The notes under the pieces are model-generated. The model was not told the DNA's origin and made no database searches. It saw only the letters and a list, made by a program, of their open reading frames with translations. From positions 1-53,727 of the IMG/VR virus record IMGVR_UViG_3300046459_000313: a stretch of DNA of 53,727 nt. The stretch is one strand, 5' to 3'. Both the position numbers and the translations under genes were made by a program. Below, piece by piece: positions 6,369 through 46,177 of the stretch (the first letter of the stretch is position 1; every line of letters begins with the position of its first letter). Origin of the DNA: a virus.

Positions 6369-6629
6369 ATGTGCGCGATAGTGCTTGTGGAGGATGTGGA
6401 CCCGTCCGTGCCGCGATGGGACCGCGATCGGGTGGCCTTGGTGATCGCACCCGGACTTACCTACTTCGAGGCCCTGAGGCAGATACGGGCCCTCCTGATC
6501 TTCCTGGGAGCCCCTCAGATGGGGCTCGGTGCGACATGCTGGTGTGGAGAGTACGTGGCCGTTCCCAGGGCCCGTGTCCCTCAGCAGCAAACCGCCGCCG
6601 GACGCGAGGAGGCCCGCAATGCCCGCTAA
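6369..6629 (+). CDS. possible small protein upstream of int, 86 aa
   Basis: An ORF from ATG 6369 to a stop overlapping the integrase start by 11 nt, with TTGGGGG upstream of the ATG. The middle (PGLTYFEALRQIRALLIFLGAPQ) is a plausible amphipathic helix, followed by CWCGEY. The last codons overlap the integrase ribosome-binding site, which would couple int translation to it. It is not recognised. A TTGACA at 6291-6296 in the gap before it could be a -35 box, but no good -10 partner is seen. Confidence 0.4.
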   Translation: MCAIVLVEDVDPSVPRWDRDRVALVIAPGLTYFEALRQIRALLIFLGAPQMGLGATCWCGEYVAVPRARVPQQQTAAGREEARNAR

Positions 6630-7869
6630 GGCCCGCAACAACCCCCGCCAGATCCGCATCAAGTCGTGCGGCTGCAAGGCCTGTACGGAGAAGTTCAGAC
6701 CCCGCGACAAGCCCACCCGCAAGGACTGCACCGGCAGTTGGCAGGCGCGGTACCGGGATCCGTCCGGCAAGCAGCGCGCGAAGACCTTCGCCGGGCAAGG
6801 GGCCAAGCGGAAGGCCGAGGCGTTCCTCGACAGGACGAGGGACCAGGTCCGGACCGGGTCGTTCGTGGACCTCGACCGAGGTCAGATCACCGTCGACGAA
6901 TGGCATGCCAAGTGGCAGGCTGCACAGCGGATCGGTGAGAACACTCGCGAGACGGCCACAAGCGTGTGGACGAACCACGTGCAGCCACAGTTCGGATCAT
7001 GGCGGCTCACTTCCATCGGGAACCTCGATGTCGAGGAGTGGGTGGTCGGCCGCGTGGCCGTAGTGGGCGTAGCAACGGTTGAGAAGGCATTCAAGATGCT
7101 CGATCGTCTGCTTACCGCGGCGGTCCGGGACCGGCGCATCACGCATAACCCCTGCGAGGGCGTCAAGCTGCCCAAGGCCCAGGCGAAGCACCCTGACGAT
7201 TTGATGCCGCCGACCTACGATCAGCTGGCGCAGATCCGGGCTCACATGCCGGACCACTTCCACCCGATGCTGATCTTTGCGGAGGAGACCGGGCTCCGAT
7301 GGGGTGAACTCGTCGGCCTACGCCGGTGCTTCGTAGACTTCGAGGCGGGCAGCATTCAGATCCGCGAGACGATCATTCAGGTCCACGGCAATCCGAAGCG
7401 GAAGGCCTATCCGAAGTCGGCGGCCGGCTGCCGGACTGTTCCGATGTCGGCTCGCGCGGCTCACGCCCTTAAGGGGCACCTGAACAAGCATCCCGTCGAG
7501 TCGTCCCGGACGGCCCCGTCCAGCGGCATGCATGCCGAGGAGCTGGTGTTCCGCGGGCGGCGCGACGGCGTGCTGGACAGAAGCAATTTCTGGAGAATGT
7601 GGACGTCTGCGAGCGAGGCGGCGGGGGTTGCCCGGCAGGTCGAGAATCCGGTGACGCGTCGCGTCGAGCGGTGGCCCCATGTGCACGATGTGCGGCACGC
7701 TTTCGCATCACGCCTGCATGCGCTGGGTGTGCCGGAGGCTGACGCCCAGAAGATCTTGGGTCATGAGCGCGGCGCAAAGATCACTTGGCTCTATACACAC
7801 GCCAGCGCGGGGTCGGTGGATTCGGTGCGCGCCGCCCTGGATCAGGGCGGATTGAGGATCGTTTCGTAG
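6619..7869 (+). CDS. int: tyrosine integrase (phage int), 416 aa
   Basis: The start at 6619 (MPAKARNN) is supported by GAGGAGG 7 nt upstream; the longer frame to 6529 lacks a site. The N-terminus has a Cys-containing arm-binding-type domain (SCGCKACTEKF, SWQARYRDPSGKQRAKTF), then a SAM-like core-binding domain (WHAKWQAAQR...). The catalytic domain shows R227 (ETGLRWGEL), H356 and R359 (HDVRHAF), LGHE, and nucleophile Y392 (WLYTHAS). The family recombines phage and host att sites. It faces the hairpin-rich gap at 7.9-8.4 kb, where attP may lie. Confidence 0.93.
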   Translation: MPAKARNNPRQIRIKSCGCKACTEKFRPRDKPTRKDCTGSWQARYRDPSGKQRAKTFAGQGAKRKAEAFLDRTRDQVRTGSFVDLDRGQITVDEWHAKWQAAQRIGENTRETATSVWTNHVQPQFGSWRLTSIGNLDVEEWVVGRVAVVGVATVEKAFKMLDRLLTAAVRDRRITHNPCEGVKLPKAQAKHPDDLMPPTYDQLAQIRAHMPDHFHPMLIFAEETGLRWGELVGLRRCFVDFEAGSIQIRETIIQVHGNPKRKAYPKSAAGCRTVPMSARAAHALKGHLNKHPVESSRTAPSSGMHAEELVFRGRRDGVLDRSNFWRMWTSASEAAGVARQVENPVTRRVERWPHVHDVRHAFASRLHALGVPEADAQKILGHERGAKITWLYTHASAGSVDSVRAALDQGGLRIVS

Positions 7870-8240
7870 CGGAATCCGCTCGGAGTCCACAACGCGTCCA
7901 CGCATCCACATCTACTGAGATCACCCCACATCCGAACCTTGACGGGGTCGGATGTGGGGTGACCTGCAGTTTTACAAGTCGCGACCCTTCCACCTGTGTG
8001 GATGTCGCTTCCACATCAGGTGTCCTTCTCCCGGTTGAGATAGTTGCCTAGCTCCGGATCGGACGATAGTCCACTTGTAGATACTCCCAGCTAGAAGGCC
8101 ACATTCGGGCCCCACACTATGAGATCCACAGAGCTGGCAGAGCTGCCAAGTCCACAAAGCATCCACAACGGCGACCCCCGCAGGGGTACCTCGAAGGAGT
8201 GAGGCAGCCCGTACCCCATTCCGCTCACGCGGATCCGACT
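7870..8240. other. gene-free stretch after int with TCCACA repeats; possible attP/arm sites
   Basis: No convincing ORF. TCCACA occurs at 7886, 7905, 8125, 8151 and 8162, a TTCCACAT at 8009-8016, and reverse TGTGGA at 7997-8002. This is the core of the motif found around the repressor. A cluster of short repeats immediately downstream of int could be integrase arm-type sites around an attP core near 8040-8100, or further operators. No tRNA-like core could be recognised. Confidence 0.3.
7921..7962. repeat. perfect 14-bp inverted repeat downstream of int
   Basis: TCACCCCACATCCG (7921-7934) and its exact complement (7949-7962) flank a 14-nt loop. The arms contain CCACAT/ATGTGG, so the structure could be a paired binding site. 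It could also act as a weak terminator for int, although only TTTT follows. Confidence 0.5.
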
Positions 8241-8247
8241 CTAGGAT

Positions 8248-8400
8248 CTTGATCACCGGGGAGGGTGCGCGTGCTGCGCAGTCCCTGATGCACCCCCATG
8301 CGAGGACCGGTGGGGAAGATGGTCGGTAGGGCTCAGCCCTATCGGTGGAGCCTCAACTCCACTGGAGACGCCCCCGCCGTGTGAACCGGCGGGGGCGTTC
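8248..8400 (+). ncRNA. candidate structured RNA, series of hairpins ending in a terminator
   Basis: A TAGGAT box (8242-8247) precedes a run of short stems: GGGTGC/GCACCC (8263-8268, 8290-8295), TAGGGC/GCCCTA (8327-8332, 8336-8341) and GTGGAG/CTCCAC (8345-8350, 8357-8362). These are followed directly by the 12-bp terminator hairpin at 8368-8398. No ORF fits. A small trans-acting or immunity RNA is possible; the -35 region is poor and the call rests on folding by eye. Confidence 0.3.
8368..8398 (+). terminator. rho-independent-type hairpin, 12-bp stem
   Basis: ACGCCCCCGCCG pairs with CGGCGGGGGCGT over a 7-nt loop, followed by TCTGCTGT. It closes the possible RNA upstream and insulates the integration region from the genes at 8.6 kb. 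Confidence 0.65.
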
Positions 8401-8897: not shown

Positions 8898-8941
8898 GCC
8901 CCGTCCGTCTCGTTGGCTCCACCTCACTCGACGGACGGGGC
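8898..8941 (+). terminator. hairpin after XRE gene, 12-bp stem
   Basis: GCCCCGTCCGTC pairs with GACGGACGGGGC around a 20-nt loop, starting one base after the stop codon of the XRE gene. There is no U tract, as is usual for Streptomyces terminators. Confidence 0.6.
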
Positions 8942-9237
8942 GCATGGGGTGCTGCCGCGTGGACGAGCGGACGAAGAATCCATTGGTGGCTGCGCACGAG
9001 TTCAGCACGCCTCGATACCCACACAACGGAGCCCTCCACCGGTAGCCACTACGGCACGCCCGCGCCAAGGCATGGCGGGGCGGGCTGACGAATCAGCCTG
9101 TTCACTCGGTGTCGGCTCCGGGTGGATGATCGAGATTCCCGCATCCGCCAGGCGTGAAACCGATGAACGTTCCGACGAATGTCACGTTCCGGTTGCGGTT
9201 CGCGCGCTGCCGTGCGCAGCGTCCGCAGGCAGTCGCC
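8942..9237. other. gene-free stretch, about 300 bp
   Basis: Open frames cross this stretch but lack ribosome-binding sites and have low-complexity, shadow-like composition. Apart from a small GC hairpin near 9058-9085, nothing recognisable is present. Confidence 0.5.
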
Positions 9238-9264
9238 TGTAACGCAGGCATGCCTGGCGTTACA
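9238..9264. promoter_or_regulatory. 27-bp near-perfect palindrome
   Basis: TGTAACGC and GCGTTACA flank the palindromic core AGGCATGCCT, with a single extra G breaking symmetry. The right arm overlaps the stop codon of the 64-aa gene. The GT(N)AC-type arms resemble GntR-family operators, and a small GntR gene starts about 340 bp to the right. It could equally act as a terminator of the leftward gene. Confidence 0.4.
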
Positions 9265-9454
9265 CGCCTCGCTTGGCGCGTTCCTTCGCCGCCCGGTACT
9301 CCTGCCGCAGCTCACCAGCGTCCGCACAGTCCATGCCCTCGGTGCGGCACGAAGGGCACGCCACGGTGTGCTGGATGAACGCGCTGTACGCGGTCTGGAC
9401 GATGGCGTCTTCGGCCCTGTGCTGGGCTGCCAGTGGCCCGCTAGGCTCGTGCAT
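9260..9454 (-). CDS. small Cys-containing hypothetical protein, 64 aa
   Basis: The start at 9454 (MHEPSGPLAAQHRAED) is preferred over GTG 9499 because GGGAG lies 8 nt upstream. The protein has AFIQHTVACPSCRTEGMDCADAGELRQEYRAAK: a CPSC...C cluster followed by a basic helix. This layout is common in Streptomyces accessory and AICE genes. Metal binding is likely; the function is unknown. Confidence 0.6.
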   Translation of the reverse strand: MHEPSGPLAAQHRAEDAIVQTAYSAFIQHTVACPSCRTEGMDCADAGELRQEYRAAKERAKRGV

Positions 9455-9602
9455 GTCATCAGCTCCCACTGCTGGTGTCCGCACCCCCGGATCGGTCACA
9501 CGGTCGCGGGGGTTTTTCGTGCTGTACCCTACAGCGCCCTATAGACCCATGTGCAGTACTACGTGTGTCTCTGCAGGTCAGAGGGGTCATACGGTCGTTG
9601 GC

Positions 9603-9860
9603 ATGGTGGACGACGACGACATGCCCGTGATTGATCCGGCCGGCCCGCAGTTGGTGTACGTAGTCGTGGCCGACCACATCGCGACACAGATCGCCGACGG
9701 ACGGCTGCCGGTGGGGGCGAGGCTGCCGGGCGAGCTGGCCATGGCCGAGATGTACGGCATCGCGCGGATGACGGTGGCCCGTGCGGTGCGGGAGCTGCGG
9801 GAGCGGGGCCTCGTCGTCACGGTCCGCGGCAAGGGAACGTTCGTCGCCGACCAGCCGTGA
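9603..9860 (+). CDS. GntR-type winged-helix regulator without effector domain, 85 aa
   Basis: The full GntR DNA-binding domain is present: LVYVVVADHIATQIADGRLPVGARLPGELAMAEMYGIARMTVARAVRELRERGLVVTVRGKGTFV. There is no C-terminal UTRA or FCD domain. ATG 9603 lies 7 nt after TACGGT (9590-9595), consistent with a leaderless transcript; ATG 9621 is an alternative. It is followed by the 78-aa protein and may regulate it and itself. Confidence 0.75.
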   Translation: MVDDDDMPVIDPAGPQLVYVVVADHIATQIADGRLPVGARLPGELAMAEMYGIARMTVARAVRELRERGLVVTVRGKGTFVADQP

Positions 9861-9900
9861 CCTCCAGCTGATTGTCAGACCCGCCGCTTACGATCCGGCC

Positions 9901-10144: not shown

Positions 10145-10182
10145 CCGCCTCGCCCCTTGGCGCTGTCCTCGGGGCGAGGCGG
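10145..10182 (+). terminator. hairpin, 12-bp stem
   Basis: CCGCCTCGCCCC pairs with GGGGCGAGGCGG over 14 nt, directly after the 78-aa gene. Confidence 0.65.
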
Positions 10183-10273
10183 GAAGCAATCACCCTGTTT
10201 CGCGGGCCACTTGGCCCTGGGGATTGATGCAATAAGTCTACGAGGCCGGTATGACAGTCGGCCTGGACAGCAG

Positions 10274-10307
10274 GTGGCCCCGCCGACGGGGGACGCAGCG
10301 GGGCCAC
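10274..10307 (-). terminator. hairpin, 10-bp stem
   Basis: GTGGCCCCGC pairs with GCGGGGCCAC over 14 nt, downstream of the leftward 67-aa gene. Together with the hairpin at 10145 it separates convergent units. Confidence 0.55.
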
Positions 10308-10345
10308 GGCCAGTGTGGCAGGCGCGGTTGGCAGTGCGGGCGGTA

Positions 10346-10549
10346 TCAGCGGTCCTCGTCGGGCCAGACTTTCAGCAGCCGCCCGCCGTCTGCTTCGTCG
10401 GTGAGCGTGATGCGGGCGCCCGTCCGGCTGCCGCGCTCGCCGACCCAGGCCGCGAACTTCCTTTCGGCGGTCTTCAGGTCGGGCCACCAGCCGTGCATCA
10501 CAGGCTTGCCGTCGGTCGACAGCGTGAGGCGAAAGCGCAGGTTGTCCAC
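10346..10549 (-). CDS. small conserved-type hypothetical protein, 67 aa
   Basis: The sequence LRFRLTLSTDGKPVMHGWWPDLKTAERKFAAWVGERGS...ARITLTDEADGG looks like a compact alpha/beta protein. It is of a type common in Streptomyces genomes, often near mobile genes. It is followed by a hairpin and lies 9 nt downstream of the 108-aa gene, so the two are probably co-transcribed. Function unknown. Confidence 0.65.
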   Translation of the reverse strand: MDNLRFRLTLSTDGKPVMHGWWPDLKTAERKFAAWVGERGSRTGARITLTDEADGGRLLKVWPDEDR

Positions 10550-10558
10550 GGCGGCAGG

Positions 10559-10885
10559 CTACGACTCGTCGGTCACGATCGTTACGGCCGCCCCCGCCTC
10601 GCGGGCAGCTTCGCGCACAACGTTCACGGTCTCCACTAGTGGGGCACGGGGGCCGCCTCGCGGGGTGGTGGCGATGAGACAGGGCATGCACCGGTCCAGC
10701 CAGCGGCGGCCATGCCCAGGAACCTCGACGACGCCGGTCACTCTCGCCGGCTGGCCGCACCGCACGCACGGATGCTTGCCGTCGAGCCGCTCGATCCCTG
10801 CGCTTTGGCGCGGTGCCCACGGTGGAGCGGGGTCCAGCTGCGCCGGGTCGATGTCGAGGGATTGCAGCAGGTCAGCGTTGTCCAT
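10559..10885 (-). CDS. zinc-ribbon-like hypothetical protein, 108 aa
   Basis: ATG 10885 has GGAGGG 7 nt upstream. Two CxxC pairs (HPCVRCGQPARV and DRCMPCLIA) about 30 residues apart suggest one zinc site. The C-terminus (VETVNVVREAAREAGAAVTIVTDES) is helical then beta. It is probably a small regulatory or adaptor protein; no enzyme motif. Confidence 0.6.
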   Translation of the reverse strand: MDNADLLQSLDIDPAQLDPAPPWAPRQSAGIERLDGKHPCVRCGQPARVTGVVEVPGHGRRWLDRCMPCLIATTPRGGPRAPLVETVNVVREAAREAGAAVTIVTDES

Positions 10886-10960
10886 GCGGTTCCCTCCTGT
10901 CGGCCTCGGCAACGGTACGCCGCCCGATGGTACTCAAGGGTGCGGCGTAGACTCGAACGC

Positions 10961-11293
10961 ATGTACGACCTGCCACCCGACCTACCCAGGCTCCGGACCC
11001 TGCGGACCTGGTACGCGATGTGGGTAACACGCATCGACGAGGCCATCGCAGCGGCCGAGCAGCAGGAGCGGGAGCGGCGGCAGGGCGAGGAGCGGCGGCC
11101 GCCCACCCCGGACTGGATTGTCGAGCTCGGCATCGGTGTCGGCCGACCGCCGGTCGAGGTGCACGTTGGCGGGTGCCGGATGGCTGGGAAACGACAGCGC
11201 ACCATCACCCGGGAGCAGGCCCTCGCCGCCCTTGCCGACGGGATCCGGGCCTGCATTCACTGCCGGCCGGACACGGAGCTCGGGGTGCTGTGA
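10961..11293 (+). CDS. DUF6233-like protein, 110 aa
   Basis: It starts MYDLPPDLPRLRTLRTWYAMWV and contains RRPPTPDWIVELGIG, HVGGCRMAGKRQRTITREQALAALADG and a final ACIHCRPD, the pattern of the DUF6233 family, abundant in Streptomyces (from memory). ATG 10961 follows TAGACT (10948-10953) by 7 nt with no Shine-Dalgarno, so it is probably leaderless. It is convergent with the HNH gene, with stops adjacent. Function unknown. Confidence 0.75.
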   Translation: MYDLPPDLPRLRTLRTWYAMWVTRIDEAIAAAEQQERERRQGEERRPPTPDWIVELGIGVGRPPVEVHVGGCRMAGKRQRTITREQALAALADGIRACIHCRPDTELGVL

Positions 11294-11728
11294 TCAGATG
11301 CTGGCCAGCCGGATTGCACCGTGATCGGTCGCCCCGGGGATCCGCTCGCTCGGCCAGGTATTGCACCAGTGACAGCTCCAGCACAGGTTGTTTACAGAGT
11401 TCGAGCCGCCGTCGATGCGGGCGACGATGTGGTCGAGGCTGCCGATCCTGCGGCCAATGTGCCCCCACGGCATCGGCTTGCGGGTTTCGGGATGCATGGG
11501 CGCCGCCTGGACAGCGAGGGACCCGCAGTACGAGCACCGCCCGCAGGCAGCGGTCAGTACCGAGACAACGTCCTCGGTCGAGATTCGTTCTGTAGGGCGC
11601 CCGCTGAGCAGCCGCTCGCGGTTGGCGCGCTTGGCCTTCCTGCTGCACCAGTGGCGGATCTCCCGCATAGGGGTGCCTGCAAGGAAGGCCTCGAACGTCG
11701 GCCACAGCGGCAAGGGGACCTCAGTCAT
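11294..11728 (-). CDS. HNH endonuclease, 144 aa
   Basis: The HNH/zinc core is clear: CGRCSYCG, then RIGSLDHIVARIDGGSNSVNNLCWSCHWCNTW, containing the H...N...H ligands and two CxxC pairs. The N-terminal half is helical and basic (IRHWCSRKAKRANRERLL). It is the last gene of a leftward operon after the second recombinase and an HTH protein, overlapping the latter by 8 nt. It could be a free-standing homing nuclease or a defence or recombination partner. Confidence 0.8.
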   Translation of the reverse strand: MTEVPLPLWPTFEAFLAGTPMREIRHWCSRKAKRANRERLLSGRPTERISTEDVVSVLTAACGRCSYCGSLAVQAAPMHPETRKPMPWGHIGRRIGSLDHIVARIDGGSNSVNNLCWSCHWCNTWPSERIPGATDHGAIRLASI

Positions 11729-12044
11729 GCAGCTCTCCCGCTGCCAGCCTCCGACCGGCTGGATCGTCGAGGACCAGCCCCACGTACTGCTCGGCTGCCG
11801 CGGCCTGCACGAGGCGCTTCGGCACGCCCAGACCGGCAGCGATGGCGCCGAGTACCTGCGGTGTGATTTTGATGCGGCTGCCGGTGACGAGGTTGCCCGC
11901 AGTGCTCTTGCTTATCGTCGTCCCGGTTGCGGGGTCGATGGCACGCTCGGCGAACTCGCGGAGCGTGAGCGGACTGCCCTTGCCTACGTGCTTCTGCACC
12001 AGGCGCGTCAGCGCGTCCCTGTCTGCAGTCCTTCTCATGGTCAC
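11721..12044 (-). CDS. HTH DNA-binding protein, 107 aa
   Basis: The GTG start overlaps the recombinase stop (GTGA). An XRE-like domain runs LTLREFAERAIDPATGTTISKSTAGNLVTGSRIKITPQVLGAIAAGLGVPKRLVQ, in which SKSTAGNLVTG is the likely recognition helix. The C-terminus (YVGLVLDDPAGRRLAAGELHD) is short. Tight coupling to the recombinase suggests it regulates the operon or helps recombination. Confidence 0.7.
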   Translation of the reverse strand: MTMRRTADRDALTRLVQKHVGKGSPLTLREFAERAIDPATGTTISKSTAGNLVTGSRIKITPQVLGAIAAGLGVPKRLVQAAAAEQYVGLVLDDPAGRRLAAGELHD

Positions 12045-13081
12045 TTGGTGTCTCCTTCAGGCTGGAGTCTTGCCGCGAGCTTCGAGGCGAGACCGTAGGC
12101 GGGGTGATCGTCGAGCATGCGCCGGCGTCGGTTGTACCGCTGGGTGGTTCGCGGGTTGGTGTGGCCGACCGCGTCCTGGACGCGCTCGAGGGGGACGTTG
12201 TCGGCGAGGTTGTCGGTGATGAACTGGTGCCGCAAGGTGTGCGGCTTGATCGATGTCGCCTGCGGGATTCCTGCCCGGCGGGCCAGGACGCGCAAGTGCT
12301 TCCAGACCTCGGGCTGCGTCCAACGGCGTCCGCTGTCGGTGACGAACAGCGGGCCCTCTGCGCGGTCGCCGAGGTAGGCCCGGAGTGCGTCGAGGGCGAG
12401 GGGCGGCACGGGGACGGGCTTCTTCTTCCCGCCCTTGAGCGTGAGGGGCAGCGTCGTGTGTCCGCGGTCGTAGCCGAGCTGGTCGGCGTTGAGCGCGAGG
12501 ATCTCGTCGATACGGGGACCGAGGAGATAGAGAAGGGTGACGAGCGCGTAGGAGCGGGGCGCCCAGTCGCGCGCTGTTTCGATGAGCGCCATCGTCTCGT
12601 CGGGGAGCATGCCTTCGGTGGGGCTGTGGTCCGGATCGATGTACGGCCGGTCGACCGAGGCGAAGGGGTCGGCGGCGCAGGCGTCAACGCGGACGGCGTA
12701 GGTGTAGAAGGAGCCGGCGGCAGCGAGAGCTTGCGCCTGTGTGGACAGAGAGAGCGGCCCGGCCTTGCCGCGCTTTGTCTGTGCGGTGGCGAGGTGGTTG
12801 GCGTAGGCGTCGGCGAGCGGCAGCTTCGCTTGGAGCGGGTGGATGCCACTGCTGCGGGAGTAGTCCTCCCAGCGGAGGAAGTTGCGGGCGTAGGCGCGGC
12901 GGGTGTGCTTGCTCTTGCCGCGCGCGATCCAGGCTCCGGCGACGGTGGGCAGCGGGTCGCCCTCGCCGTAGATGGCGGCGAGGTGGTCTCGGATGGCGCG
13001 GGCTTCGTCGGGCCAGTCGTCGCGGGGGTCGCGGCGGTCGGTCGACAGCTCAGCCGACGGCCGCGGGACGAGGGTGGTCAC
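12041..13081 (-). CDS. second tyrosine recombinase, XerC/D-like, 346 aa
   Basis: GTG 13081 is chosen because it overlaps the stop of the 51-aa gene (GTGA), and GGAGGG lies just upstream. There is no arm-binding domain. The core-binding domain is at about residues 40-140 (AGAWIARGKSKHTRRAYARNFLRWEDYS). The catalytic domain shows R190 (LLGPRIDEI), H281 and R284 (HTLRHQF), AVGHTN, and nucleophile Y316 (TQRYNRR). It differs from the int at 6.6 kb, so the element has two unrelated site-specific recombinases. It could integrate a sub-element or resolve multimers. Confidence 0.88.
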   Translation of the reverse strand: MTTLVPRPSAELSTDRRDPRDDWPDEARAIRDHLAAIYGEGDPLPTVAGAWIARGKSKHTRRAYARNFLRWEDYSRSSGIHPLQAKLPLADAYANHLATAQTKRGKAGPLSLSTQAQALAAAGSFYTYAVRVDACAADPFASVDRPYIDPDHSPTEGMLPDETMALIETARDWAPRSYALVTLLYLLGPRIDEILALNADQLGYDRGHTTLPLTLKGGKKKPVPVPPLALDALRAYLGDRAEGPLFVTDSGRRWTQPEVWKHLRVLARRAGIPQATSIKPHTLRHQFITDNLADNVPLERVQDAVGHTNPRTTQRYNRRRRMLDDHPAYGLASKLAARLQPEGDTK

Positions 13082-13233
13082 GACCTGCCCTCCGGTCGGG
13101 CGAACATGCGGTCCTTGATCTGCGCCTGAGTGGGGGGTTCCCACTTGTGCCAACCGACCGGCTCCATCCACTGTCGGCCATGACCGCGCTGATCGATGCC
13201 GCACCAGCGACACGAGTGCGGAGTTGAAGTCAC
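13078..13233 (-). CDS. 51-residue CxxC mini-protein
   Basis: GTGA overlaps fix both ends: its GTG shares bases with the upstream stop and its stop with the recombinase start. The product begins MTSTPHSCRWCGIDQRGHGR and ends MFARPEGRS, with one CxxC plus nearby His residues. It is too short for usual length cut-offs. It may be a small zinc-binding directionality or regulatory factor for the recombinase, by position only. Confidence 0.6.
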   Translation of the reverse strand: MTSTPHSCRWCGIDQRGHGRQWMEPVGWHKWEPPTQAQIKDRMFARPEGRS

Positions 13234-13424
13234 TCGTCACCCTCGTCATCCGCGACGGTGAGCAGCTCCGGCGTCGGCCCCCACGTGGGCTGCCCGCTGG
13301 CATCGAGTCCTGTCATGTAGGGCCCATTACACCGCTTGCCGCAGGGGCATCCCGGAAGACAGTGCGGGCAGGTGCCGAGCCACCCCCATCCGTCTCGCTT
13401 GCAGTGGATCTGAGGCGTCGCCAT
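13230..13424 (-). CDS. cysteine-rich small protein, 64 aa
   Basis: A GAGAGGAG site precedes the ATG by 6 nt. The product contains CKRDG, CPHCLPGCPCGKRC within residues 8-32, so it probably binds one or two zinc ions, and ends in an acidic tail (VADDEGDE). First gene of the leftward operon leading to the second recombinase. Function unknown. Confidence 0.6.
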   Translation of the reverse strand: MATPQIHCKRDGWGWLGTCPHCLPGCPCGKRCNGPYMTGLDASGQPTWGPTPELLTVADDEGDE

Positions 13425-41683: not shown

Positions 41684-42592
41684 CTAGGCGGGCACTTTTC
41701 CTGCGACACATTCGGTGCAGCGCAGCATGATCTGCCGGTCGTAATCGGTGGTGGCGTTGGAGTTGAGGGCGGGCACGAAGGTGGTGCCACGGCACCGCAT
41801 GCACTCGTTGGGGGTCGCGGGGCGGTCGTGGCCTTGGGCGACCCACTCCGAGTCGGTCATGCCGGAGTGCGGGTTGCGGGCGTTGGGGTCTGTGCTTACG
41901 GGCTGGCGCCTGTGTTCCTGCGCCGGATCGTTGGGGTCGTATGGCGCGGTAGGCACGGACACCGTCCGATCTGCCGGTGACGGGCTGCCGTTCTGGTTGG
42001 GCATGCGGGGTGTCTTCTTCCTGGCGGCTGGCTTCTTGGGCTCGGTCACTTCGATTGCTCCTTCGGCGGCTTGGCCGTACCAGGCGCCGCCGACGGTCTT
42101 GCCGCCGTGCTTCTGCCGCTCGTGCGTGCGGAGCGCCTTCGTGGCTTCCTTCGCATCCCGGAAGCGGGGCTTCTCCTTCTTGCCGCAGGGGCACGTCCAG
42201 CCGATGAGCCCGGTGTTCCGGTCGGCGCCGAACCGGGCGATCATCGCGACCTTGAGGCGGCCGGCCTTGCCCTTGGTCGGCTTGGCGGGGCAGGCGTTCG
42301 AACCAGTGAAGGCGCCGGTCTTCTTGTCCTTCTTGTAGATCACGCCGTTGCCCTTGCAGGTGGGGCAACCTTCGTGGGTCATGCGGAGGATCGCGGCGTC
42401 CTTGCGGGACATGACGGTCTCCTTCCGCGCGTCGAGCTCCTGGGCGGCTTTGAGGGCCATCCACATCCCGATCCGGGCGTGGATCGGGACCGAGCGCGGG
42501 ACCTTGAGGCCGCCGCCGACTCGGGCGCGGGAGACGGGCTTCCGGCGGCGGGCGGTGGTGCGCTTGCGGGCAGTCGACGTCCTGGCGGCCAT
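41684..42592 (-). CDS. zinc-cluster protein of the transfer operon, 302 aa
   Basis: The start at 42592 (MAARTSTARKRTTARRRKP) follows GAGAGGAA. A strongly basic N-terminus is followed by CPTCKGNGVIYKKDKKTGAFTGSNAC (DnaJ-like CxxCxGxG), CPCGKKEKPRF, a basic helix, and C-terminal CMRCRGTTF...LRCTEC, enough for several zinc sites. It begins about 45 bp from the iteron array and lies next to the traB-like gene. It may bind the array or relaxed DNA; no relaxase or Rep motif is visible. Confidence 0.6.
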   Translation of the reverse strand: MAARTSTARKRTTARRRKPVSRARVGGGLKVPRSVPIHARIGMWMALKAAQELDARKETVMSRKDAAILRMTHEGCPTCKGNGVIYKKDKKTGAFTGSNACPAKPTKGKAGRLKVAMIARFGADRNTGLIGWTCPCGKKEKPRFRDAKEATKALRTHERQKHGGKTVGGAWYGQAAEGAIEVTEPKKPAARKKTPRMPNQNGSPSPADRTVSVPTAPYDPNDPAQEHRRQPVSTDPNARNPHSGMTDSEWVAQGHDRPATPNECMRCRGTTFVPALNSNATTDYDRQIMLRCTECVAGKVPA

Positions 42593-42635
42593 GATCGACG
42601 GTTCCTCTCTTCGAATGTCACATATATGGATCAAT

Positions 42636-42776
42636 GGGGTGTCTATGGGCCGTCTTTGGCCCGACTAAGGCCCGTCTATGGCCCGGCTACCTGCAACGAT
42701 GCGTTGGCGGGTAGCCGGGGCCCAGACGGGGTCAAGACGGGGGTTAGGCGGCCTGAAGACGGGTCTTAGACGGGTC
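42636..42776. repeat. eleven 11-bp iterons in two inverted arrays (clt/origin-like)
   Basis: Five head-to-tail units run 42636-42690 (GGGGTGTCTAT, GGGCCGTCTTT, GGCCCGACTAA, GGCCCGTCTAT, GGCCCGGCTAC). A 20-bp centre follows (42691-42710; contains CAACG-N3-CGTTG). Six units in opposite orientation run 42711-42776 (on the minus strand GCCCCGGCTAC, ACCCCGTCTGG, CCCCCGTCTTG, AGGCCGCCTAA, GACCCGTCTTC, GACCCGTCTAA). Consensus GRCCCGTCTNN. The exact 11-bp period puts every copy on one face of the helix. The array lies at the 3' end of the traB-like gene, overlapping its last 11 codons, the place where Streptomyces clt/TRS repeats (such as GACCCGGA) are found. Confidence 0.75.
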
Positions 42777-44855
42777 GATCAGGCCTCCTGCGGCCCGCTC
42801 GACGGTGGATCGGTGCCAGCCTCGAACCTGGGGGCGGCCCTCCCATTCCTCCCGGCCGGCGGTGGCGTTGGGGGCGTGGGAGCGGAGGAGCTGCGACAGC
42901 TTGTTCGCGTCTATGGTCTCTGCTCCTGCGCCGTGCAGGGCGGGGAGCAGCACCTCGGAGGTGGGCAGGAAGCTGCGCCCGCTGGCCTCGAACTCGCGGA
43001 GCAGGACGGCCACCAGGCGGGCGTCGTCGATACCGCCCTGCGAGGCGAGCGCGTCGAGCCGGTCCGCGAGACTGACCTTCCCTGTGACGCCGTTGCGCGT
43101 GATGACGTGGAGCAGGTCGGCGGCGGCGAGGCTGTCCTGGTCGAACCAGGGTCGGCCTGCTTCCTTCCGGTCGGCGACGGCCTGCATGATCTGGTCGCGG
43201 GACAGGCGGTCCCACTTCCACAGGATCGGCCGGTCGTAGCCGGGGCCGCGGATGAATGCCTTCCCTGCGTCGAACACCCGGTCGTCGTCGACGGCGGGCT
43301 GCAGCCGGTCGGGCCGGTAGCCGGCCGCGGCGGCACCGGTGCCGAGAACGAGACGGATGTCTTCGGCGCGGGAGGCGAGCATCACCCGGTAGGTGACGGA
43401 GTCGGCGATGGCGTCGCCGAGGGAGTCCTCGGTGCCCTCCTGCGCGGCGAAGATCAGGAACACGCCGGTTTCACGGCCGATGCGCAGCAGCTCGATCGCG
43501 AGGGATTTGGCCTCCTTCGGCAGGTAGATGAACTCGTCGACGATGGCGTAGATGGCGGGGTACTCGGGGGACGGCTCCCACAGGTCACCCATGCCGCGCT
43601 GGTGCTTGACCTCGTTGCGGGCGGAGGCGATACGCACCAGGCGGGACAGCCACTCGGTGCAGTCCTTCGCGCCACGGATCGGCGAGGCGGCCATGACGCC
43701 CTCGAACTCGCGCAACCCGCCCTTGACGGGGTCCATCTCGATGGCGATGGCGTCCCGGCAGGCGGTGATGACCTCGGCGATGCACCGGAGCGCACCCTTG
43801 GTCTTCGCGGACCCGGACTTGCCGATGATGAGCATCGACATGCCGCGGAGCCGGAGTTCAAGCGGGGCCCCGTCCATGCTCCGCCCGCGGACGGCGACGT
43901 CGCGAACGGACAGGGAGTTCGGGCCGTGCACGGCCGGGCGGGGCAGGTTGGCGAACGGGTCGGCGGTGACGAGGCGCAGAACGAGGTGCGACGACGCTTC
44001 CAGGTCGGGCTCGATCAGGGTGCCGCCGCGCTTGATGTCGAAGTGGGCGTCGAGGGCGTCGGCTGCGGCGTTGACCTTGCCGGGGGTGGCCCCCTTGAGG
44101 ACGACGTCGATCTCCCATCCCCACTCGCGGTGGCCGAGGACGTTGATGCTGCGGGTGCCGATGCCCTCGTGCGCCAGGGCTCGGGACACGCACTCGATGA
44201 CCTGCTCGCCGCCGACGCAGTACGACAGCGGGAACGGCTCGTCGCTGTTGGGGTCTTCGTGATCGGCGATGACCTGGCCCGGCGCCAGCTGCGGGGCGTT
44301 GAGCCGGTACCGCCCGTACAGGGCTGTCACGGTCGCGGCGATGATCCCGGTAACGGTCGGGGGGATCGCCCACGAGTAGTCCAGGGCGGTCATTCCGGCG
44401 CCGGCGACGAGGGCGATCCAGCCGGCCAGGTTCAGGGCCGCAGTGGTCGCGGCGGCGTAGCCGAGGAACCTCCAGCGGGAGTGGCGCGTCATCTGGACCT
44501 TGTTCCAGTCGGTGCCCTTCTGCATTCCGCCAAGGGTTTCCTGGAGGTCGTGGGCGCGAACGTACCGGTATCCGAGGTAGGCGCCGGCCTTGAGTCCGGC
44601 CCAGAACCATCCGCCGAACGTCCAGCCTCCGCGGGCGGTCAGGCCGACAGCCCGCCCGGTGACAGAGGCGACAACCATGGCCGCGGAGCCAGCCCGGTAC
44701 AGGGCCGGGGTGGTCGGCTCGTAGATCTCCACGATCCCGGGAGCGATGTCGTCGTCGTCCACCGCGGGGGCGGCCGGCTCGGTGACGAGCTCGCCCTTGA
44801 TGACCCTGGGGAAGTCCCAGGCGATGGCGGACTCGTGTGCGAATTCGGTGGTCAC
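42744..44855 (-). CDS. FtsK/SpoIIIE-like DNA translocase, TraB-type conjugation ATPase, 703 aa
   Basis: An N-terminal region with membrane helices (about 55-75 and 130-185) precedes the RecA-like motor: Walker A IIGKSGSAKT (about 342-351), EMDPVKGG, Walker B YAIVDEF (about 434-440), and FAAQEGTEDSLGDAI. The C-terminal winged helix (about 620-700: GWHRSTVERAAGGLID) corresponds to the gamma/TRS-binding domain of Streptomyces TraB proteins. Those hexamers move double-stranded DNA between mycelial cells. ATGA-coupled behind the DUF2637 gene. A packaging or chromosome-segregation role is a less likely alternative. Confidence 0.82.
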   Translation of the reverse strand: MTTEFAHESAIAWDFPRVIKGELVTEPAAPAVDDDDIAPGIVEIYEPTTPALYRAGSAAMVVASVTGRAVGLTARGGWTFGGWFWAGLKAGAYLGYRYVRAHDLQETLGGMQKGTDWNKVQMTRHSRWRFLGYAAATTAALNLAGWIALVAGAGMTALDYSWAIPPTVTGIIAATVTALYGRYRLNAPQLAPGQVIADHEDPNSDEPFPLSYCVGGEQVIECVSRALAHEGIGTRSINVLGHREWGWEIDVVLKGATPGKVNAAADALDAHFDIKRGGTLIEPDLEASSHLVLRLVTADPFANLPRPAVHGPNSLSVRDVAVRGRSMDGAPLELRLRGMSMLIIGKSGSAKTKGALRCIAEVITACRDAIAIEMDPVKGGLREFEGVMAASPIRGAKDCTEWLSRLVRIASARNEVKHQRGMGDLWEPSPEYPAIYAIVDEFIYLPKEAKSLAIELLRIGRETGVFLIFAAQEGTEDSLGDAIADSVTYRVMLASRAEDIRLVLGTGAAAAGYRPDRLQPAVDDDRVFDAGKAFIRGPGYDRPILWKWDRLSRDQIMQAVADRKEAGRPWFDQDSLAAADLLHVITRNGVTGKVSLADRLDALASQGGIDDARLVAVLLREFEASGRSFLPTSEVLLPALHGAGAETIDANKLSQLLRSHAPNATAGREEWEGRPQVRGWHRSTVERAAGGLIDPSKTRLQAA

Positions 44856-46177
44856 TTCTGCTCCTCGGCGGCGGTGATGCGGGCGGTGATTGCGGCCTGC
44901 TTACGGGCGGCCGCGGAGTACTTCGGGGTGTCGCCCCGACGACGTACCGGGGGCTTCCTCGCGGGACCCCGCTGAGTACGGGGCATTTGGTTTGCACGCT
45001 GCGCGTTCGTGGTTTTGCTGAGGGTGTTGACGGAGGTGTTTTCGCGGGCCGCGGCGACACGTCGCTCGGCCGCGTTTCGCATGCGCAGGATCTCCGCGGA
45101 CTCACCAGGCAGGGCCCCGTCGACGTCGAGCTTGGCCCGCTTCCAGATGGCTTCCGTGATGGTCGTCTCACCCAGGTCTGCGGCGAGCTTCAGCGCGTGC
45201 TGGTGGACCGCCGAGAACTCCTTCGCTCGCGCGTCGTCGAGAGCCTTCGCAGACTGGCGAACAGCGTTCTCCCTGTAAGCCTGACGCTCGACTTCAAACA
45301 GCTTCGCCGCAGCCTCCTCGGCGGCCCTCTTCTTCTCCGCCTTCTTCAGCGCCTTCCGCTCCCGGCGGGTCAGTGCTCCGTCGCGCCTGCGGATCCGGCC
45401 GTGCTCGTGGAGGTCCCAGACGCCGGGACCGGCGAGTGACGCGAACGCGGTACCGATCGCGGTGGCCGGGTCGAACGCGGCCATCCCGTGCCACAGGTTG
45501 ATCCCCGCGGCGATGAACGCGAACATCCAGGTGACGGTGCGGTAGTGCCAGTGCGGGCGGTGGGCAGCGACGGCTGCCGCGGCGCCCTTGGTGACGACGA
45601 GGGCGGCACCTTCGAGCATCAGCGGCGCGATCACCAGCCACCATGCCTGCGGGTCCCAGAACGCGGCGACCTGGACGGGCAGGGCGACGACCGCGCACAC
45701 GGCGTAGAACGCGATGGCGTATCGCTTCCACGTGTCGTCGGCGGCCGCGATCTTCTCGGCGGCCGCCGCTTCGGCCTGCTGCTCGGCGTCGGCCTGCTCG
45801 CGGGCGGCGGTGTTCTGGCGCGCAACCTCGGCCCGCGCTGCTTCGATCTCCTCCATGCGGAGGTTGTGGGTGGCGCGCTTCTCCTCGGTGGCCATTGCGG
45901 TGCGCTCGTTCGCGAGGCGCTGCTTCTCCGCGTCGGCCTTGGCCTTGGTGCGTGTCGCTTCGGCTGCAGCTTCGGCGGCGATGCGCTGCGCTTCGGCCTC
46001 GGCGTAGGCGCGGGTCCGGATTGCGTCGGCCTCAGCCTCGGCAACCGGGTCGGGCTTCGGCTCGGTGGGCGCGGGCTCGACGGCGGTCGGCTTCTCCTCG
46101 GCGACGGCCTGCCAGTCCCCGAGTACGGGCATGGCGGGCCGCTTGTGGCCATTCACCTGGGGCGGGCTGGTCGTCAT
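44852..46177 (-). CDS. DUF2637/SpdB2-like membrane protein, 441 aa
   Basis: A Pro/Glu-rich N-terminus and long Ala/Glu coiled coil (about 45-148) lead to three or four membrane helices (about 153-173, 178-198, 214-233, 236-252) with AFWDPQAWWLVIAPLMLEGAALV and TWMFAFIAAGINLWHG, the DUF2637 signature. A basic, charged C-terminal region follows. SpdB2-type proteins are spread proteins acting with TraB in Streptomyces plasmids and AICEs. ATGA-coupled to the translocase, which supports that role. Confidence 0.82.
   Translation of the reverse strand: MTTSPPQVNGHKRPAMPVLGDWQAVAEEKPTAVEPAPTEPKPDPVAEAEADAIRTRAYAEAEAQRIAAEAAAEATRTKAKADAEKQRLANERTAMATEEKRATHNLRMEEIEAARAEVARQNTAAREQADAEQQAEAAAAEKIAAADDTWKRYAIAFYAVCAVVALPVQVAAFWDPQAWWLVIAPLMLEGAALVVTKGAAAAVAAHRPHWHYRTVTWMFAFIAAGINLWHGMAAFDPATAIGTAFASLAGPGVWDLHEHGRIRRRDGALTRRERKALKKAEKKRAAEEAAAKLFEVERQAYRENAVRQSAKALDDARAKEFSAVHQHALKLAADLGETTITEAIWKRAKLDVDGALPGESAEILRMRNAAERRVAAARENTSVNTLSKTTNAQRANQMPRTQRGPARKPPVRRRGDTPKYSAAARKQAAITARITAAEEQK

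Follow-up and report, generated by a model that had tools for sequence, protein, structure and literature searches.

On bacterial chromosomes, short oriented sites known as KOPS are read by the C-terminal winged helix of FtsK (FtsK gamma). As summarised in PMC3583192 and PMC4170104, the clt/TRS elements of pSVH1 and pIJ101-type plasmids are short repeats recognised by the FtsK-like protein TraB, and TraB of pSVH1 recognises them via its C-terminal winged helix. The clt of pWTY27 measures 175 bp, made up of 16 bp of the tra gene 3' end and 159 bp downstream; it contains short direct and inverted repeats, and the FtsK-type protein TraA footprints two regions in it (PMC3583192).

We analysed a 53.7-kb IMG/VR virus record (hereafter the window, meaning the whole of this stretch of DNA), which carries terminase, tail and head genes, RecE and two integrases and is a Streptomyces prophage or temperate phage. 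At the 3' end of its FtsK/TraB-like translocase gene lies an array of 11-bp units in two opposed arms, for which we regard the pWTY27 clt as the closest demonstrated precedent: it likewise overlaps the 3' end of a tra gene, but it belongs to a conjugative plasmid and its units are TGACACC and CCCGCCC. Whereas KOPS are scattered and polar, the sites of the window are clustered in one symmetric array. Its units differ from the 8-bp TRS GACCCGGA cited in a first-pass annotation of this DNA, and PMC3583192 and PMC4170104 mention no phased layout in two arms for clt of the pSVH1/pIJ101 type.

The plasmid pFP1 and its relatives (L086, L082, L083, L170) encode a homologous translocase (33% over 463 aa) with an array directly 3' of the gene, and they have in common with the window the opposed arms, a GCAGGTCA/TGACCTGC pair and related flanking genes. 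Unlike the window, this group has CTCTAC/GTAGAG units and a near-perfect central palindrome, and its members are plasmids and not phages. Transfer of pFP1 and pFP11 reportedly depends on traB. The TraB-like protein of L082 (1984-4575) has an N-terminal stretch, STSMLQRKLRVGFAEAGALMEAL, at residues about 25-60, which resembles an FtsK gamma domain. A further point of comparison is pZL12, or Streptomyces phage ZL12 (GQ919031), which resembles the window in being a tailed phage with an FtsK-like gene upstream of its packaging genes, but the similarity of its FtsK is remote (25% over 154 aa, E 0.02). No array was found in it by a strict scan, which misses degenerate arrays, and its conjugal transfer has been reported (cited in PMC3583192).

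The array and its neighbouring genes

Read directly, positions 42636-42776 comprise five units, a 20-bp centre and six inverted units in a strict 11-bp register. The left arm (42636-42690, plus strand) has the consensus GGCCCGTCTAT and consists of GGGGTGTCTAT, GGGCCGTCTTT, GGCCCGACTAA, GGCCCGTCTAT and GGCCCGGCTAC. The centre (42691-42710), CTGCAACGATGCGTTGGCGG, contains the dyad CAACG-N3-CGTTG and, on the ftsK sense strand, the motif GCAGGT that is common to nearly all related arrays; the six right-arm units, in inverted orientation, occupy 42711-42776 on the minus strand. The units are degenerate, the weakest being the outermost left unit and the one at 42744-42754. On a two-arm period-11 score, computed over 110 columns with the centre length free at 10-33 bp, the array reached 85, compared with 70 or less in 40 Markov-1 simulated sequences of 53.7 kb and with 71 for the highest score elsewhere in the window. 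Both the reading and the score thus confirm the first-pass description of eleven units with an 11-bp period in two inverted arrays around a dyad.

The translocase gene (42744-44855, minus strand) has its stop codon at 42744-42746, within the right arm, which makes the last three right-arm units (42744-42776) part of the coding sequence. It encodes an FtsK/TraB-like DNA translocase of 703 aa (phrog_12531, E 1e-71) in which Walker motifs can be read from the sequence, with predicted N-terminal helices, an FtsK-fold motor and a C-terminal winged helix. The AlphaFold2 model is confident in the motor, which Foldseek matched to the E. coli FtsK motor 2ius (E 5.6e-15), placing it in the FtsK/SpoIIIE motor fold; long helices at residues 114-186, candidates for the N-terminal membrane segments of a TraB-type translocase, fall in a low-confidence part of the model. 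The C-terminal domain, to which we assign the 3' segment of the gene at 42777-43070 (minus strand) on the basis of predicted structure, fold searches and the co-variation described below, is modelled in the order alpha-beta-alpha-alpha-beta-beta-alpha of a winged helix. Foldseek with this domain alone returned no significant match, and in VIA-align many of the best matches were winged helices such as Rex (Z about 6.5, maximum 6.7), so that the fold assignment rests mainly on the order of secondary structure. The protein scored 34.2 bits against the NCBIfam plasmid_TraB equivalog NF041214, the cut-off of which is 800; it is a relative of plasmid TraB that lies outside this equivalog.

The array is adjoined at 42600-42635 by an AT-rich segment (TTGATCCATATATGTGA on the opposite strand), which is kept in the window's subgroup and may be the promoter of the downstream gene. 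That gene (41684-42592, minus strand) encodes a CxxC zinc-finger-like protein of 302 aa, stays beside the array across the subgroup and shows a weak relationship to the gene immediately following the traB array in pFP1 (blastp E 1e-4), while the upstream gene (44852-46177, minus strand, 441 aa) is related to the DUF2637 protein upstream of traB in pFP1 (blastp E 1.2e-11), both E-values being computed against a set of only seven proteins. The gene order DUF2637-like, translocase, array, zinc-finger-like is common to the window and pFP1, the downstream match being weak.

Helically phased inverted units with an AT-rich, possibly promoter-bearing segment by the downstream gene would suit an operator at which a phage regulator controls the translocase operon or the downstream gene. 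The location of the array at the 3' end of the translocase gene, overlapping its coding end, speaks against an operator, which we consider very unlikely. The first-pass annotation had named an iteron-type replication origin or a partition site as alternatives, and repeated 11-bp units, a dyad and an adjoining AT-rich stretch are features that would fit either of them. Among the neighbouring genes tested, which are part of the window's genes, these alternatives gained no support, since none matched Rep, ParA or ParB; moreover pFP1, which has a separate rep/iteron locus (PMC3583192), still has an array after traB. We hold an origin or partition role to be extremely unlikely.

Related arrays in Streptomyces phages, genomes and plasmids

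Neither blastn of the window array region against phage records nor a single-protein scan of IMG/VR returned matches, whereas an alignment-based scan succeeded. Related arrays were gathered by translocase-alignment scans of viral contigs and Streptomyces genomes, with the addition of three plasmids, which gave 65 non-redundant loci where the array starts within the 3' end of a homologous translocase gene or just after it. These loci belong to Streptomyces prophages, genomes and plasmids, pFP1 included. The design common to the 65 arrays consists of two opposed arms, a phasing of 10-12 bp and, usually, an inverted GCAGGTCA/TGACCTGC pair. Unit sequences vary, the types being GTCTA (the window's group), TGCTCA, TGCTCG, TGATCAG, GTGACG, TGACA, TGCTA and CTCTAC. 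The symmetric layout had been singled out in the first-pass annotation as unlike a simple one-direction TRS string, which is correct, but symmetry turns out to be the rule in this family, in plasmids as well.

Averaged over the family, the autocorrelation peaks at lags of 10-12, 21-22, 33, 43-44 and 54, in contrast to coding DNA with its period of 3, and exact units most often follow one another at 10, 11 or 12 bp (210 counts). The spacing of the inverted GCAGGT/ACCTGC pair takes values of 75, 86-87, 97-98 and 107-108 bp, i.e., steps of about one helical turn. The GCAGGTCA/TGACCTGC pair lies 10-63 bp after the ftsK stop and is kept despite differing units (L092, L097, L102, L119, L086 and most others). 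A protein-blind DNA query, GCAGGTCAN{75,77}TGACCTGC, found 80 loci; at 27 of these an FtsK gene stops 40-63 bp short of the motif, and with a longer-spacing query an FtsK gene ended 25-46 bp before the motif at 10 of 52 loci. Away from FtsK loci, most matches to the GCAGGTCA pair appear to be fortuitous. With an exact 5-mer detector, 40 of the 65 arrays stood above all shuffles; this detector misses degenerate arrays, including that of the window, and the absence of an array by this measure is therefore weak evidence. More distant FtsK-type genes have arrays of AGGGAG, TGGAC and GATCGGC units at or near their ends (L300 about 8150-8330, L302, L019 1381-1533, L172 4618-4760), L300 and L302 being short records (about 15 kb) that contain terminase and FtsK.

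Co-variation of array units with the translocase C-terminal domain

The first-pass annotation had proposed looking for co-variation between unit sequence and the winged helix of the translocase, and such co-variation was found. Array k-mer distance correlated with the distance between C-terminal domains (CTDs) when the motor was taken into account (partial Mantel r=0.575, p=0.0005), while the correlation between array and motor given the CTD was 0.17. As a control, the DNA of the downstream gene had no link to the CTD given the motor (r=-0.016, p=0.63). On these figures the unit sequence follows the C-terminal winged helix of the translocase and not the motor.

In L092-L094 and L149-L152, a window-type motor (53-72% identity over residues 301-575) and a window-type downstream gene (45-59% identity) are kept, the CTD is 16-22% identical to that of the window as against 39-74% in the rest of the subgroup, and the array units have switched to TGCTC or GATCA. 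As we read these alignments, CTD and array have been exchanged together between unchanged flanks. In L091, the CTD of which has diverged, most units have GTCC where the group has GTCTA. Within the TGCTC class of arrays, the wing motif TLG accompanies TCA units in 26 cases, and TCG units are paired five times with PIG or GIG; in three exceptions (L132, L139, L141) TCG units occur with TLG. These counts come from related sequences and are not independent.

Because the CTD lies next to the array, part of the correlation comes from their being inherited together. What speaks against linkage as the sole cause is the downstream control, together with the swaps inside conserved flanks and the concerted changes of units, and the latter two favour recognition. 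A unit that follows the translocase CTD also counts against an operator bound by a phage regulator, and its co-variation with an FtsK domain counts against an origin or partition site. If the correspondence holds, the natural CTD/array swaps would provide a ready-made specificity code between winged helix and DNA site.

Candidate roles of the array and elements lacking a translocase

Most probably, judging from the sequences compared here, the array is a cis-acting recognition and loading site of clt type for the adjacent phage FtsK/TraB-type dsDNA translocase. The first-pass annotation had called it a clt for this translocase; as a claim about a DNA site this is strongly supported by the 65 loci, the CTD co-variation and the joint swaps, whereas for conjugation we infer it from the homology and synteny with pFP1, the precedent of pWTY27 (PMC3583192) and the FtsK-less elements with several arrays described below. 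By this analogy, a clt role in conjugation is likely. In the mechanism that we propose, the phage's own dsDNA translocase would load at this clt-type site and, as a membrane-anchored motor, would move phage DNA as duplex across a hyphal septum or into neighbouring mycelium in the manner of plasmid TraB; homology to the pFP1 transfer region is what suggests such movement between compartments or mycelia. On the two opposed arms, two motors would sit facing opposite ways, and a circular molecule would be pulled through as two duplex arms. Such bidirectional, two-motor loading is conjecture; if true, it would explain the passage of a closed circular duplex across the septum, and the symmetric layout makes testable the long-standing question of TraB movement of uncut circular duplex.

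The same cognate site could also serve a translocase that acts solely within the phage cycle, e.g., by moving replicated or prophage DNA across septa into other compartments or prespores, with no conjugal transfer, in which case elements without FtsK would carry arrays so as to be moved along. In keeping with this, the translocase gene lies a few kb upstream of packaging genes in both the window and L011, and a related FtsK (about 33% identity) is found even in the lytic Samistivirus phages, for which spread in the manner of a plasmid is unnecessary. On the other hand, synteny links the module to the transfer region of the plasmid pFP1, and Samistivirus has no array after its FtsK gene: at its loci, including L084 (4380-4382), another gene follows FtsK directly and no array was found there, nor was one found in the complete NootNoot genome by the strict scan, which misses degenerate arrays including the window's own. 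The Samistivirus loci suggest that a phage FtsK can probably work without an array. Absence of the repeats from close relatives that keep the translocase, which the first-pass annotation had put forward as grounds for abandoning its reading, was not observed, although FtsK without an array does occur in distant lytic phages. We regard a function confined to the phage cycle as possible but doubtful.

Three elements in which an FtsK match is absent carry five array types each in one tandem block, namely L275 (about 10170-10980), L298 (about 8930-9900) and L455 (about 11020-11800). The blocks are periodic at 11, 22 and 33 bp, with some arrays assigned by eye and with viral records that may be fragments, and the window's GTCTA type is present in two of the three elements. 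L275, a 17.7-kb contig with terminase and helicase-primase, has the types GTGACA, TGCGC, TGCTCA/TGCTA, GTCTA and TGTCAG and shares its genome record with a 75-kb prophage (L011/L095), whose own array is of the GTCTA type. The L298 stretch, about 14.7 kb between direct repeats of which the right-hand one is at the end of a tRNA-Arg gene, carries an integrase as well as capsid genes. The third element, L455, is recorded as a prophage of 37.8 kb. Where relatives of the L298 island's capsid occur in other genomes, no arrays were seen, and multi-array stacking is thus not a fixed trait of this capsid lineage. Several array types in tandem where the translocase gene is absent are a further argument against an operator, and the five-array elements imply that a pump whose gene lies elsewhere can make use of an array. 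If this is true, they would represent a new sort of hitchhiker on the pumps of other elements.

Returning to the clt-type loading site, we advance, as a tentative proposal that is less probable than not, that in many temperate Streptomyces phages a plasmid-type translocase and its symmetric site provide another way, independent of virions, to spread duplex DNA within or between mycelia, that pump-less prophages and islands exploit this by collecting sites for five different pumps, and that the two-arm site loads two opposed motors. Were this the case, a plasmid conjugation module of pump and clt-type site would be widespread in temperate Streptomyces phages, and the line between infection and conjugation would be blurred.

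As a separate observation, the two integrase genes of the window, at 6529-7869 (plus strand) and 12041-13303 (minus strand), are different from each other and lie 4 kb apart, possibly reflecting two elements or a decayed second integrase.
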